NCBI GenBank assembly: GCA_938083505.1
Contig: CALKCF010000008.1
Span: 1-43,535, forward strand
Direction of reading: 5' to 3'
DNA from: an uncultured archaeon
GTDB lineage: Archaea > Thermoproteota > Nitrososphaeria_A > Caldarchaeales > Wolframiiraptoraceae
Length of the DNA: 43,535 bases
Shown here in pieces: positions 10,748 through 41,461 of this stretch. The translations under genes and the position numbers were made by a program. The notes beneath the pieces were generated by a model. It searched no databases and was not told where the DNA came from. It was given only the letters and a program-made list of their open reading frames with translations. The first letter of the stretch is position 1, and each line of letters begins with the position of its first letter.

Positions 10748-12670
10748 TTAGAGTTCTGCGAATATTTCGTTTATTGTTGCTGTGGCCACACACACATATG
10801 TGTCGGCAGCGCCATAGTATAGGAATATTCTATTATCTCGAACAACAGCTCCACATGGGAAGACGACATTTTTTACGTATCCCTCTCTTTCGTAAGATGC
10901 TTCTGGAGACAGAAGCGTCGTGGTTGTTCTGGCTATAACCTTCTCCGGTTTCTTAAGGTCTAAAAGTGCTGCGCCAACATGATAGAAGTTATCGTGGGAG
11001 ACACCATGATAGAAGATTAACCAACCCTTTTCTGTCCTGATTGGCGGTGTAGCCAAACCCACTTTCTTCCCATCCCACATTCCAACCCTTGATGCAAGCA
11101 AGCTGTGTGAGACAAGCATCGTCGGATCAACGGTCTCCAATGAGTCAATGTAATCGTAGGTTACGTTTATGCCGCCAGCTCTGTGTATGTAGAAATACTT
11201 CCCGTTTATGGGCTCTGGTATGATGCATGCATTTTTATCGTCTATGCCAGGCGGAGAGATTATCTTGGGCCTTGACCACTTCCAGTCCCGATTAAGGAAG
11301 TCATTTATCTTGATGGAAGTCACAGCAACCTTTGGCGGGTTAACGTTGTCGTAGGCAGTATAGAACATGTAAAGCTTATCTCCGACTTTCACGATTCTTG
11401 GGTCTTCGCATCCTGAATGGCCTGGTGTAGCCTTTCTCTCAAAAGGCTCCCTCGGAACATAAATTGGCTCATCTAAAATTTCTTCAATTGTGAAACCGTC
11501 GCTGGTTATTGCCAGACCTATCGTGGAAGTTTTATCCTGCGAGAGGGCTCTAAAGAGTATATAGATCTGGTCTTCAAGTTCTATAGCAGCCGGATTGAAG
11601 GTTGCGATGCTCCGCCACTCAAAGCGCCTGTCAGGCGAGATTATAGGGTTTTTAGCATACCTTTTAAATACCGATTTCAGACCACTTTTGAGAATTCTCT
11701 TGATGTGGCTCAATCTTGCTGTGGCTAAGCAACAGACGGTGTCGGCAGCCCCATAATAAAGCCTTATCCAGTCCTTATGCCTTATGACCGAGGATGGGAA
11801 GACAACCTTTGGGATGTGACCGTAAACCTCGTACACCTCTTCGGGAACCATAAAGGGATAATGGGTTTTGGCTATAATTCTACGCGGATCATCAAGGTCA
11901 AGGAGCAGAGCTTCAACACCGAAAACTCTTTCCGTGGGCGATTCTGAAAAATAGTTTTGGATGTAAGAGTATATGAGGAGCCAGCCCTCTTCTACTTCTA
12001 TAGGTGGAGCACCGACTTCAATATGATCCCTCGGCGATCGTCTAGGATCGGGTCTCAACGTCCAGCTCATAAATTCCCTATACCACTCCTCCATCTCAGT
12101 GTACCAGAGCGATGGGTCATCGCCAAGTTGGGCTACGCATATGTAGGCCGGCGGCCTGTCTGTGTGAACTGTCAGAATCGCCGTAAGCTTTCCGTTTATT
12201 CGTTTTGGGAAAAGCGCCATAGCCTTCGCGTTAAAAGGTGTGACAAGATATTTTCCCTCAATCTTTTCTAGATCCCTGCTCACGGCAACTCCAACCCTTA
12301 TCCCTTCGGCCTTAGGTGGCAGGCTGGATATCGCCGTGTAGAAAATGTAGTACTTTCCATCTATGTACGTCACTCGAGGATCCTCGCATCCGAATCTTTC
12401 CCATTCCATTTCCGGGTATATGAAGCATCGTCGTTCACCGAAGTGCACACCGTCTTTGCTTACGGCAATCCCTATTGAGCTGAAGCTTGACCCTTGCTTC
12501 TTCAGGAGGTCAGAAGAAGAAATTGCACGGTAAAGCATATAATACTTGCCGCCTCTCTGAATAACCGCCGGATTGAATGTGGCGTATGCCTCCCACGAGT
12601 TCTCTCTTACAGGAAGCAGGATCGGATTCTCATCACTACGACTAATCATAATGATTGCCTTAAATTTCAT
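10748..12670 (-). CDS. tandem double-domain GH130 protein (glycoside phosphorylase family)
   Basis: GH130 enzymes are five-bladed beta-propellers that phosphorolyse or hydrolyse beta-mannosides and related sugars. This 640-residue protein is two GH130 domains end to end. Domain 1 (about 10-310) has TFNPAVI, the GCEDPRV motif with the proposed catalytic Asp, and YYIFYTA. Domain 2 (about 330-640) repeats ATFNPAAI, GCEDPRI and LYMFYTAYDN, and both end in the LYYGAAD motif. A single domain is normally about 300-350 residues, so this is a fusion or internal duplication. The partner gene at 12686-13750 encodes a third copy most like domain 2. No signal peptide is seen, so cytoplasmic action is likely. 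The exact substrate is unknown. Confidence 0.88.
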   Translation of the reverse strand: MKFKAIIMISRSDENPILLPVRENSWEAYATFNPAVIQRGGKYYMLYRAISSSDLLKKQGSSFSSIGIAVSKDGVHFGERRCFIYPEMEWERFGCEDPRVTYIDGKYYIFYTAISSLPPKAEGIRVGVAVSRDLEKIEGKYLVTPFNAKAMALFPKRINGKLTAILTVHTDRPPAYICVAQLGDDPSLWYTEMEEWYREFMSWTLRPDPRRSPRDHIEVGAPPIEVEEGWLLIYSYIQNYFSESPTERVFGVEALLLDLDDPRRIIAKTHYPFMVPEEVYEVYGHIPKVVFPSSVIRHKDWIRLYYGAADTVCCLATARLSHIKRILKSGLKSVFKRYAKNPIISPDRRFEWRSIATFNPAAIELEDQIYILFRALSQDKTSTIGLAITSDGFTIEEILDEPIYVPREPFERKATPGHSGCEDPRIVKVGDKLYMFYTAYDNVNPPKVAVTSIKINDFLNRDWKWSRPKIISPPGIDDKNACIIPEPINGKYFYIHRAGGINVTYDYIDSLETVDPTMLVSHSLLASRVGMWDGKKVGLATPPIRTEKGWLIFYHGVSHDNFYHVGAALLDLKKPEKVIARTTTTLLSPEASYEREGYVKNVVFPCGAVVRDNRIFLYYGAADTYVCVATATINEIFAEL

Positions 12671-12685
12671 TAACTATTCAAACAT

Positions 12686-13750
12686 TTAAACATAATTTCT
12701 CCGCTCCCTCAGTAAAAGTTCAACAAGCTCTGTTATATTTCCTCTTGCAACGCAAACGTAGTTATCTGCAGCTCCATAGTAAACCAGTAGATCGTCATCT
12801 TTTACAACGGCACCAGTTACGTATATCACGCCAGGCTTGAATCCTTCATGCTCGTATTTCTCCGTAGGCTCCAGCACAGGATACTTACTTACAGCTATGA
12901 TTTGTCTTGGATCCTGCAGATCCAAAAGCATCATGCCCACTTTATATTTGCCGGGCTCCTTGGTATCTGCCGCATGGTAGAGGAGAAACCATCCCTCCGC
13001 GGTTTCTAGGGGTGGAGCTGCCACCCCCCTCACATACCCTTCCCAGAAATGTCTCCAAAGGATGCGGCCTTCATCGAAGATGCTCCGTATATAAAAGCCC
13101 TCAGCAACCTCAAGGGAGTCGAGAAACTCAATCTGTAAAGTCGGTGACAGACTATGTAGGATCGCATACTTACCCTTGAACTTTTTAGGAAACAAAACCC
13201 AGTTTTTGTGAGATTCCCCTGGAGGTGAAATAATCCTAGGCTTAGCCCAACGCCACCTTTTATCGAGGAAGTCCTCAACGCTTATTGAGGTTAAAGCCAC
13301 TCCTAGATTTAAACCGTCATAAGCCGCATACAGCATATAAAGCATACCTTCGTCCTCTACGTGAACAATTCTGGGATCCTCGGCGCCTATAAACGAGCCG
13401 CCTGAGGCGCTCATCAACGGACAAAACATGTTTTCAACCCTATGCTCGTAAACAGGATAGTCGAGTCGTTTGATAATTTCAAAACCATCAACGCTCGAAG
13501 CATAACCTAATCGTGAAACCAGATCATCACCGATAGCCCTATATAAAAGGTGAACCCTACCATCAACATAGACCGCTCCAGGATTAAACGTCTGTCTGCT
13601 CTCCCACCAGAAACCCTCTCTAGGTGAAATTATAGGGTTAAAAGAATACTTCTTAAAGATCTGCAAAAAACCAGCGGAACTACATCCAAGCATACTGTCC
13701 CTACAAACATTAATTAAAACAAAAGGTAAATATAAACCGATATTTGTCAT
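12686..13750 (-). CDS. GH130 family glycoside phosphorylase/hydrolase
   Basis: A single GH130 domain of 354 residues: QTFNPGAV (substrate pocket), RAIGDDLVSRLGYA, GAEDPRIV with the proposed catalytic Asp, MLYAAYDG, PPGESHKN, PPLETAEGWFLLYHAAD, and the terminal LLVYYGAADNYVCVA. The N-terminal ~25 residues before FKKYSFNPIISP look non-conserved, so translation may start at the internal Met near residue 20. It lies 15 bases upstream of the tandem GH130 gene, so the two form an operon, probably acting on an oligosaccharide or on intracellular mannan-like polymer or solute. No transporter is adjacent. Confidence 0.88.
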   Translation of the reverse strand: MTNIGLYLPFVLINVCRDSMLGCSSAGFLQIFKKYSFNPIISPREGFWWESRQTFNPGAVYVDGRVHLLYRAIGDDLVSRLGYASSVDGFEIIKRLDYPVYEHRVENMFCPLMSASGGSFIGAEDPRIVHVEDEGMLYMLYAAYDGLNLGVALTSISVEDFLDKRWRWAKPRIISPPGESHKNWVLFPKKFKGKYAILHSLSPTLQIEFLDSLEVAEGFYIRSIFDEGRILWRHFWEGYVRGVAAPPLETAEGWFLLYHAADTKEPGKYKVGMMLLDLQDPRQIIAVSKYPVLEPTEKYEHEGFKPGVIYVTGAVVKDDDLLVYYGAADNYVCVARGNITELVELLLRERRNYV

Positions 13751-38442: not shown

Positions 38443-39024
38443 ATGGTAAAATTTTATTTGATTTTGACAGGAGAAAGAGGTTATGCCGTACTTATTATAG
38501 CCGCGTCGTTTACCCTTATGATTATGCCTTTTTATATTACGTTTAATGAGCTTCTCACGGAGATCATAAAATCGATCGGTTTATGGTGGTTCATAGAGGC
38601 ATACATTGCACCACTCGTGGCACATCTTGCGGCATCTATGCTGAGCCTTTTCGGATTTAATGTTACATTATCGGGCCCACTCATTTACCTAAATGCGCCA
38701 AGCGGGGCGGTAGCTTTATACATAGCTTGGAACTGTATAGGCTGGCAGAGCCTTGTTATATTCTCTGCCATATCCTACCTCGTTCTCAAAGAGTCGCATC
38801 TTTCCCGTGTCGAAAAGTTTACAATGTTATTTTTAGGTTTTCAGGGAACGATTTTAGTAAACATACTTAGGATAGCACTCGTGGCTCTTATAGCGATATA
38901 TTTTGGGAAGGGTCCGGCCATAATATTCCATGACTACTTTGGTAGCTTCCTCACGTTCGGTTGGCTCACGCTCTTCTGGTTCATAAGCACACGCACTGGT
39001 GGTGAGAATGTTGCAGGTACTTGA
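38443..39024 (+). CDS. archaeosortase (exosortase/archaeosortase family transpeptidase)
   Basis: An integral membrane cysteine protease/transpeptidase that recognises C-terminal sorting signals and swaps them for a membrane anchor. The 193-residue protein has about six helices. The family's catalytic triad is visible: Cys98 in AWNCIGWQS, Arg143 in NILRIAL and His163 in FHDYFG, each in the expected place at a helix end. Its 3' end overlaps the start of a large glycosyltransferase gene by 26 bases. By analogy with ArtA and its PGF-CTERM targets, it should process surface proteins; the likely signal here is a PEN-type one on the neighbour. Exact subfamily not assigned. Confidence 0.9.
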   Translation: MVKFYLILTGERGYAVLIIAASFTLMIMPFYITFNELLTEIIKSIGLWWFIEAYIAPLVAHLAASMLSLFGFNVTLSGPLIYLNAPSGAVALYIAWNCIGWQSLVIFSAISYLVLKESHLSRVEKFTMLFLGFQGTILVNILRIALVALIAIYFGKGPAIIFHDYFGSFLTFGWLTLFWFISTRTGGENVAGT

Positions 39025-41461
39025 GCTACTGCCATACGTCAGCCTAGCTTTTGGTTTACTTTTCTTTACGTATGCACTAAGATACTATCTAGCGCTGGCG
39101 TACACGGCATATATACTTTTCAGAGGGCGCAAATACAACAACTATGGAAAAAACGATTTCCAAACTAATGGTGGTCTAAAGTTAAGAAATTACGCGAACG
39201 GTGGCACGTCTTCCTACCCTTTTTTTAACGGCAACCACTTTCCGATGGTGAGCATACACATACCCCTATACAACGAGGAAAGGGTTGCGGCGAGACTAAT
39301 GGAAGCCCTCCTTTCATTAGAGTACCCAAGATACGAGGTAATCGTCGTGGACGACTCGACCGACTCGACACCCGTTATATTAAAGCGTTATGAAAAAGAC
39401 CCACGCGTGAAGATAATACATAGGCAGAATAGGAGCGGCTTCAAAGGTGGAGCGTTACGTGAAGCGCTCAAAATTATGAGCGATGAGGCTGAGTACGTCG
39501 TTGTATTCGATGCAGACTTCATACCACCGAAGGACATAATCCAAAGGTTGCTTAGCGAGTTCAGCAACGCATACAGCAACGCCAAGTTTGATGAGAAGAA
39601 AAACGGCAAAAACTTACGTAAAATATTAGACGAACTCTACAACTCAAGGGAAATCGTCGCGGTTCAAGGCTACCAGTGGCACGTCCTGAACGCTTCTGAG
39701 AACTGGATAACGAAGGCCGTGAGTGCTGAGTACGCGGGCAACTATTTGGTTGAGAGGTTATTCGTGAACAGTTTGATGCTAGGCGTACGCATGATATCCG
39801 GCAGCGTCTTTATGATAAGGGCTGACATACTACGCCAGTATGGCTGGAGGGACAGCCTGACAGAGGACTGGGACTTGACGCTTAGGCTTTATCGTGATGG
39901 TTACAAAGTCAGATACACCCAGCTGGCAGCCGCACCTGCCGAGTGCCCTGCCACCCTTACGTCGCTAATTAGACAGAGGGCCCGATGGGCTGAGGGCCAC
40001 ACGTTTGCCGTGAAGCGTTATTTCATGGAGATACTTAGGAGCAAGTTCTTATCTTTAAGGGAGAAGTTGGAGTTTCTCTACTTATCTCCGTACTACCTCA
40101 GCAGCTTATTCCTCATACTTGGGACAGCCTTATGGTTGACTGCGGAACTCTTGAGGGTAAAGATACCGTTCTGGACCTCGACTTTTGGGTGGTCGCTACT
40201 AATTACCAACATGATGGCCATACCACTCGTCAACCTGACCGGTCTGTGGCTAGAGTACAGAGCTTCTAAGCATTGGCATGGAGCCTTCACCTTCATCCCG
40301 CTCATGCATGTCTTAGCAATATTCCAAGCAGTAGCCGCGCTTAAGGGACTATTCGGTAAAAAGGAGTCCGCTTGGTTCAGGACACTGAAGACTGGGAAGA
40401 TTACTGAGGGCATCTTTGCGTATATCACGAGAATCCTTAAGGGCAGAAGACCTACGAAGAAAAGGTCAGGGATAGTATCTTGTGCGATCCTATCGCTCCT
40501 ATCCTCCTTCTTGGCCTACGCCCTCATTAAGCTCCTAATGAAGAGCGCTGAGGAGTCTGGAAGGATACCGCAGCCAGCCGAGTACGCCATCCTGATGGCC
40601 AGCATATCCGTGGGAATCACTACACTCGTTTGGTTAATGAGTCGAGGTACCCGAATAGGGGGCATGATGCCCAAGCTACTCATAAGCATCGCCGTCATGG
40701 CATCCTCCTACGTTCTCTTGAGACTTCTCTTCGGCGCGGAGTCCTTTACGTTCTATGAGTTTGCCTCTGCCATGACATCTGCTTGCTTGGGAATGTGCCT
40801 CTTCTATAGTTCAAGGTTCAGCCCAAATGCCTTCGCGTTGAAGAAGGCCGGCATACTCTTCGTGATGGTGTCGTTCATGCTTCTCTTGACATTCCAGCCG
40901 GTGCAGCATACCCAAGCTTATGTGCCCCAAGAGACCCTGTACCTTTATCCTAACGGTACTCACATACCGCCTCCTTATGGTATGATGAGTAATAGGCTGC
41001 CTGAAGGGTTCCAAATTTTGTGGATAAGAACGTTTTATTGGAAGTCTACGTCAGCCTATGACTTCACTCCGCAGGACAAAGGAACCTGGGTCTTTCACTT
41101 CGCTGGGAAAAACTCACCAAATCAGTTGGAACTTAGAGTTGGTGTTAGGGTTTATGTCTCGAACGACCCCGAAAGTCCTCCGTCCAAGCTTATAAAGATA
41201 GGAGAAGCATTCTTCACAATAACAGAAATAGATGAATTTGATATAGATGTCCCAATAGAAGTGAATCCTCCGGAGTGCACCGGCTGCTACATATTCCTCA
41301 GTTTAACACCATTTGGACGGGTAGAAATGTACACAGGATATATGAAAAAATACACATACCTCGTGATACCGGAGAACTTTCTGGCATTCATGCCGTTCGC
41401 ATTATTGCTACTGCTGGCCAGAAGAGCATTCCGGAAACCAAGGCAATTAGTTCATCATTGA
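38999..41461 (+). CDS. large membrane GT2 glycosyltransferase with an external C-terminal domain
   Basis: An 820-residue processive-type GT2 enzyme. After an N-terminal helix, the catalytic domain shows VVDDSTD (117-123), VFDADF (169-174), TEDWD (289-292 region) and the QxxRW motif QRARW (326-330), as in cellulose- and hyaluronan-synthase-like enzymes. Several helices follow (about 365-450 and 490-625). Residues about 630-790 form a beta-rich, probably extracellular domain starting after a helix ending in QHTQA. The protein ends in IPENFLAFMPFALLLLLARRAFRK, a signal-helix-basic tail layout like PEF/PEP-CTERM sorting signals. It overlaps the archaeosortase gene, so it may make surface glycan and itself be a sortase target. 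Starts at GTG 38999 or ATG 39008. Confidence 0.85.
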   Translation: MVRMLQVLELLPYVSLAFGLLFFTYALRYYLALAYTAYILFRGRKYNNYGKNDFQTNGGLKLRNYANGGTSSYPFFNGNHFPMVSIHIPLYNEERVAARLMEALLSLEYPRYEVIVVDDSTDSTPVILKRYEKDPRVKIIHRQNRSGFKGGALREALKIMSDEAEYVVVFDADFIPPKDIIQRLLSEFSNAYSNAKFDEKKNGKNLRKILDELYNSREIVAVQGYQWHVLNASENWITKAVSAEYAGNYLVERLFVNSLMLGVRMISGSVFMIRADILRQYGWRDSLTEDWDLTLRLYRDGYKVRYTQLAAAPAECPATLTSLIRQRARWAEGHTFAVKRYFMEILRSKFLSLREKLEFLYLSPYYLSSLFLILGTALWLTAELLRVKIPFWTSTFGWSLLITNMMAIPLVNLTGLWLEYRASKHWHGAFTFIPLMHVLAIFQAVAALKGLFGKKESAWFRTLKTGKITEGIFAYITRILKGRRPTKKRSGIVSCAILSLLSSFLAYALIKLLMKSAEESGRIPQPAEYAILMASISVGITTLVWLMSRGTRIGGMMPKLLISIAVMASSYVLLRLLFGAESFTFYEFASAMTSACLGMCLFYSSRFSPNAFALKKAGILFVMVSFMLLLTFQPVQHTQAYVPQETLYLYPNGTHIPPPYGMMSNRLPEGFQILWIRTFYWKSTSAYDFTPQDKGTWVFHFAGKNSPNQLELRVGVRVYVSNDPESPPSKLIKIGEAFFTITEIDEFDIDVPIEVNPPECTGCYIFLSLTPFGRVEMYTGYMKKYTYLVIPENFLAFMPFALLLLLARRAFRKPRQLVHH

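Follow-up and report, generated by a model that had tools for sequence, protein, structure and literature searches.

An archaeosortase gene overlapping a glycosyltransferase gene with a sorting-like tail suggests a one-substrate system fused into a polysaccharide synthase in an uncultured archaeon

The window, by which we mean the whole 43,535-nucleotide (nt) stretch of contig CALKCF010000008.1 from an uncultured archaeon (GenBank assembly GCA_938083505.1), contains an archaeosortase gene that overlaps the gene of a family 2 glycosyltransferase (GT2; glycosyltransferases are abbreviated GT below). We propose, with a probability of roughly 0.7, that in this pair an archaeosortase system with a single substrate is fused into its own polysaccharide synthase. 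The C-terminal tail of the GT is very probably, on comparative sequence grounds, a dedicated archaeosortase signal carried on a synthase-borne jelly-roll module; it appears to act as such a signal because it is conserved on GT, secreted protein and sortase backbones and co-occurs with the sortase. The host genome is archaeal, 1.15 Mb in size and 98.5% complete, and metagenome-assembled genomes named Candidatus Terraquivivens are among its close relatives. The features of the pair are as follows.

38443..39024, + strand: archaeosortase family protein, 193 amino acids (aa), identified by Pfam and NCBIfam models and invariant C/R/H
38734-38736, 38869-38871 and 38929-38931, + strand: predicted sortase catalytic residues Cys98, Arg143 and His163, invariant in 9/9 aligned sequences
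38999..41461, + strand: GT2 polysaccharide-synthase-like gene with C-terminal surface module and sorting-like tail, 820 aa
39242..39997, + strand: GT2 catalytic domain of processive type, presumed cytosolic (PF13641 over residues 82-333; motifs DAD, TED and QRARW)
40838..40918, + strand: internal signal-peptide-like segment LKKAGILFVMVSFMLLLTFQPVQHTQA ahead of the surface module, at a homologous position in 15 GTs
40919..41362, + strand: predicted extracytoplasmic beta jelly-roll module (AlphaFold2 model, VIA-align matches)
41363..41377, + strand: VIPEN motif at the junction of the last strand and the terminal helix (alignment and AlphaFold2 model)
41378..41419, + strand: hydrophobic stretch FLAFMPFALLLLLA (from sequence; helix 155-171 of the module model)
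41420..41458, + strand: basic C-terminal tail RRAFRKPRQLVHH (from sequence)

The two open reading frames (ORFs) overlap by 26 nt if the GT starts at the GTG at 38999, or by 17 nt if it starts at the alternative ATG at 39008. The first product scores above the cut-offs of PF09721 (53.8 compared to 25.7 bits) and TIGR04178 (47 compared to 23 bits), and by these profiles it is a member of the exosortase/archaeosortase superfamily with predicted transpeptidase activity; its multi-pass membrane character is read from hydropathy only. It passed none of the named subfamily models (ArtC, ArtE, ArtF, thaumarchaeosortase, XrtA, XrtG, XrtX and others), the best scores being 38.8 against a cut-off of 225 for CrtC, 35.3 against 100 for ArtC and 29 against 102.75 for XrtG. 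Used as a query, the sortase finds one match in its own genome, and in sortase trees the window's gene falls in a clade of single-domain proteins that lies apart from a clade of fused ones. The GT passes Pfam PF00535 as well as PF13641 and carries the DxD, TED and QxxRW motifs of processive GT2 enzymes. Of the curated models, PgaC/IcaA and cellulose synthase come nearest to it, and it falls well under both cut-offs (101.5 compared to 422.3 bits for the PgaC/IcaA equivalog TIGR03937). The catalytic domain is followed by further hydrophobic segments, a domain of approximately 150 residues, IPEN, 14 hydrophobic residues and a basic tail. A sequence-only reading of this DNA had described an archaeosortase with a full Cys/Arg/His set overlapping a GT2 gene, whose product combined an external beta-rich domain with a terminus of PEN, a hydrophobic stretch and basic residues, and each element of that description is borne out.

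The window's tail reads ...YLVIPEN-FLAFMPFALLLLLA-RRAFRKPRQLVHH. In an alignment of six module sequences 11 of 181 residues are invariant, and IPEN is the sole run of four (permutation 0.0013). Across the 31 tails that we counted (17 on GTs, 13 on sortases and one on a stand-alone protein; the upstream piece of a frameshifted GT in genome G004 and the GT of G095 are tail-less and lie outside the count), the Glu of the motif is kept in all 31 and the preceding Pro in 22, and in all 31 a hydrophobic stretch and basic residues, judged by eye, follow the motif. The tripartite order of C-terminal (CTERM-type) sorting signals is thus present throughout. The sequence-only reading had likened this layout to PEF/PEP-CTERM signals, and here the order of the parts stands while membership does not: four module proteins (three fused, one stand-alone) matched no NCBIfam C-terminal signal model at E<=10, and we reject assignment to the PEF/PEP-CTERM families. 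When the two module families were compared with hhalign only the tail aligned, PEN falling on PE(N/Q).

The window's sortase family was found in 18 genomes, 16 of which also encode a GT ending in a surface domain and a P-E tail (17 genes). Among 101 relatives the family is present in seven (G000, G002, G003, G004, G016, G039 and G095), further profile hits being other archaeosortases with much weaker E-values. A profile of the module finds six of the 101, all among these seven; the seventh genome, G039, breaks off at a contig end beside its sortase. In the order of genome G214 the sortase family is present in 11 of 32 genomes, with a clear gap to other archaeosortases (2.5e-38 compared to 1.2e-20), and the module profile finds 12, namely the same 11 and G408, in which the gene runs off the contig end. 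The co-occurrence of tail-bearing module and sortase holds genome by genome with two exceptions (G039 and G408), both at contig ends; Fisher tests, not corrected for phylogeny, gave 5.5e-9 for the 101 relatives and 9.3e-8 for the 32 genomes.

The same parts occur in other arrangements. Genome G095 has a split form, comprising in this order the sortase, a secreted protein of 268–276 aa with a signal-peptide-like N-terminal start and the tail IVIPENLLEFL...RRLKREK, and a GT without module or tail. In the G214 order the GTs bear a module with the tail (F/L)PG(I/M)(I/V)xPE. Many of the sortases there also carry a homologous module, complete with signal-peptide-like segment and tail, and the tail is present in 13 such fusions. 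Two GTs show further peculiarities: that of G095 (L062:10073-12844) has a large insertion between its catalytic motifs and a C-terminal extension, in both of which repeats resemble ILELDxxFxEDKIxxEEYLEKRxxLVERL, and that of G401 (L159:5978-8923) has two tandem jelly-roll-like modules ahead of the tail. Elsewhere in the phylum there are short archaeosortase/GT2 pairs without a fused module (L128:8344-10175, L132:8185-10057 and L127:8221-10196), and the pairing of sortase and GT2 in general is wider than the window's sortase family.

The AlphaFold2 model of the C-terminal domain (from 40916) is a beta sandwich or jelly roll with a mean predicted local distance difference test score (pLDDT) of 81.3, in which the last strand ends at IPE and a helix starts right after. 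With VIA-align the closest folds are the C-terminal jelly roll of PaL and those of other CocE/PepX-type hydrolases (Z 15.2, root-mean-square deviation (rmsd) 2.7, 145 aligned), followed by BcsB of cellulose synthase (Z 9.9, rmsd 3.1, 116 aligned) and CBM6 (Z 8.1, rmsd 3.2, 115 aligned). No Pfam PepX_C/CocE-type match was obtained at E<=1 for five module proteins, though the window's module has the fold. Fold similarity by itself does not reveal function, but jelly rolls related to carbohydrates would suit a synthase partner. The best match of the sister-clade module to solved structures was an uncharacterised protein (E 0.001), a result that we did not use. In 15 GTs basic residues and then a hydrophobic run precede the module, with an AxA-type site in 13 of the 15 compared to 20 of 69 other hydrophobic segments of those GTs (P 5e-5, which is not independent evidence for each row because the rows are related). 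The sortase-fused modules have a matching signal-peptide-like layout (e.g. STKVSA-ED). This layout suggests a polyprotein composed of export signal, module and sorting tail; since a signal-peptide-like segment precedes it, the jelly-roll module may be the substrate that the GT carries at its C-terminus. The earlier proposal of a synthase processed by its neighbouring archaeosortase is accordingly kept in part: the tail behaves as a sorting signal, and the likely substrate is the module rather than the synthase.

In the mechanism that we favour, the GT domain would polymerise a glycan in the cytosol and extrude it, while the module would be exported behind the internal signal peptide and might be cut from the synthase by signal peptidase. 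The sortase Cys would then attack the P-E site, removing the terminal helix and basic tail, and the module would be passed to an acceptor; by analogy this would be a membrane lipid, or the glycan or glycolipid that the same GT makes. Two adjacent genes would in this way yield a surface protein coupled to a glycan. A stronger version, which we put forward only tentatively and think rather doubtful, is that of a proteoglycan maker, in which peptidase and sortase split the polyprotein, the module is placed on the synthase's own glycan or lipid carrier, and the sortases of the sister clade sort themselves.

The window's genome has a single case of IPEN followed by hydrophobic codons, that of the window's GT. 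A looser P-E pattern gave 13 hits, of which the GT alone is convincing after the 12 others were read; this pattern can miss tails because seven of its codons must have a pyrimidine as their second base. Within these two patterns no second substrate was found, and within their reach the arrangement is one of one sortase and one substrate. One candidate, at locus L206 (IPELISSLAIS...SIR, near the end of an open frame), was rejected as matching sequences occur in the sortase-less genomes G001 and G005, and extra IPEN proteins were rejected as the motif is internal to unrelated proteins in the hits inspected from G003 and G016. The sequence-only reading had treated the lack of any other tail-bearing protein as evidence against sorting; the lack is real in the patterns searched, but does not refute sorting since the systems at issue have a single substrate each.

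Judged by gene content, a MinD-like ATPase travels with the sortase–GT pair, being present in 6/6 sortase-bearing genomes and 3/38 other genomes of the order. In G003 the V-ATPase E gene is separated from a small gene, which we take to be V-ATPase F-like, by the MinD-like ATPase, a 136-aa protein, the GT and the sortase. In the sisters G001 and G005 those two flanking genes are close together and the sortase, GT and MinD-like gene are jointly missing, G001 retaining only the 136-aa gene of the cassette. The MinD-like gene of the window's genome lies near the start of contig C3, and at the G214-order locus compared there is a MinD/ParA-type ATPase near the GT (35% identity over 138 residues). 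Other neighbours of the sortase include large YfhO/PTPS_related-like membrane proteins (L060:9244-14517 in G016, L061:684-5870 in G039 and L062:15054-17720 in G095). In G398, the genome tested, an AAA ATPase next to the sortase cluster (L153:7934-10943; look-alikes in L155, L158, L160, L161 and L163) matches PADLOC PDC-M26A (2.5e-52), and together with a PDDEXK_7/DUF2357 nuclease-like protein that also adjoins the cluster it forms a candidate defence pair. In the window itself, 10748-13750 holds two adjacent minus-strand genes, presumably GH130-type glycoside phosphorylase/hydrolase repeats.

Several observations weigh against the proposed sorting system. In 9 of the 13 sortase-fused copies the motif has Ser, Glu or Asp in place of Pro, and the hhalign similarity of the tails is partly one of hydrophobic composition. 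The module profiles were built from genomes that they then matched, and the informative part of the co-occurrence is for that reason the absence elsewhere. MinD-like homologues also occur in the sortase-less genomes G009, G012 and G014. The G004 GT has a frameshift inside its module (L063:1441-3967), which may be gene decay or an assembly error, and the GT trees, in which G095 sits on a long branch, do not settle the order of fusion and fission. Some GT2 homologues without a module end in a membrane helix (G022, G031, the second GT of G039, G076 and G097). The model of the full-length GT has a low score (pLDDT 55.7, too weak for topology), and the fold of the module is similar to that of BcsB (Z 9.9), a protein that remains anchored in the membrane in cellulose synthase.

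The alternative that survives best is a variant of our favoured explanation, and confidence in the two overlaps. It takes the tail to be a real sortase signal and lets the module stay on the synthase, where cleavage would free the C-terminus or link it to lipid, switching or localising the enzyme. The presence of the fusion in 16 of the 18 sortase-bearing genomes points to a use for it, and the presumed cleavage site is weaker in some GTs (G401 and G407); however, module and GT are separate proteins in G095, and the linker between them varies and ends in the AxA-type site in 13 of 15, so that on balance we think this variant somewhat improbable. We regard as distinctly unlikely that the tail is no more than the final membrane anchor of a glycan-guiding domain like BcsB, with the sortase acting elsewhere or being a mere operon partner. 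The module's resemblance to BcsB, the best Foldseek match of the full-length GT model (BcsA), the plain terminal helices of some module-less homologues and the lack of a second substrate all agree with an anchor, and a terminal helix alone proves nothing because some untagged GT2 homologues share one. Against an anchor, a stand-alone protein and sortases bear the P-E motif too, module and sortase are found together except in the contig-end cases, and the sisters miss the pair together with the MinD-like gene. Moreover, the readable GT2 homologues without a module have no PEN/PEF/PEP/PEG tail. Terminal helices on homologues in sortase-less genomes, which the sequence-only reading had named as a sign against sorting, do exist in some, but there they come with neither P-E motif nor beta domain, so that this sign is seen in part. 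That survey covered 24 loci, with an ORF by the script rule in 14 and none in 10 (ORFs without QxxRW are possibly wrong frames, and three reached the locus end); a survey of named records gave three loci only, one of them a distant bacterial GT. Coincidence of overlap and PEN string is very improbable: PEN-like strings arise by chance about once per genome in the pattern used (reversed control), but the invariant Glu of the 31 tails and the internal position, in unrelated proteins, of the two other IPEN matches inspected contradict it, as do the comparative data generally.

The nearest precedent for the sorting system proposed here is XrtG/Firmicu-CTERM of Gram-positive bacteria; PMC12854382 describes XrtG of Lactiplantibacillus with one Firmicu-CTERM protein and two GTs as one system, i.e. 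likewise one sorting-domain protein, one exosortase-family enzyme and dedicated GTs. There the parts are separate genes, whereas in the window the target forms part of the GT, and in other genomes it is also found joined to the sortase. The models of that system score far under cut-off here (sortase 29 compared to 102.75 bits; GT 31.1 compared to 363.95 bits for XrtG-GT), and by sequence the present system would work like it but is no member by its models. Like BcsA-BcsB, it combines a processive GT2, an extracytoplasmic jelly roll and a membrane anchor, but in one polypeptide with an internal signal-peptide-like segment, and we know of no sorting motif or sortase partner for BcsB. The XrtP-associated glycosyltransferase (NF053846) is likewise an exosortase-associated GT2, of which the window's GT falls short (55.5 compared to 520 bits) and for which no fused target is known to us. 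The PEP-CTERM/EpsH and ArtA/PGF-CTERM systems usually have many separate substrates, and no known CTERM model matches here. They have in common with the present system a Cys/Arg/His membrane enzyme, a tripartite C-terminal signal and a link to polysaccharide genes (PMC1569441, PMC5744192, PMC11980579). Exosortases are described there as tied to polysaccharide loci from the outset, EpsH proteins being reported without the signal themselves (PMC1569441), and the S-layer glycoprotein of Haloferax is reported to lose its C-terminus at PGF through ArtA, a step linked to lipid modification (PMC5744192). Among the papers listed by our literature searches, no title or opening of an abstract describes such a synthase–substrate fusion.

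To our knowledge the acceptor of most exosortases, and the reason for their siting beside polysaccharide genes, are unsettled. A system that consists of a sortase, a synthase and a single fused substrate, and that also occurs naturally in split and sortase-fused forms, reduces both questions to a test with two genes. The sorting signal defined here is absent from the model libraries searched, and it offers a clean route to annotating signals of this kind in uncultured archaea, whose terminal helices would otherwise be disregarded. If our interpretation is true, the pair would be a compact unit with which a group of hot-spring archaea produce a surface sugar and fix a protein at the cell surface.
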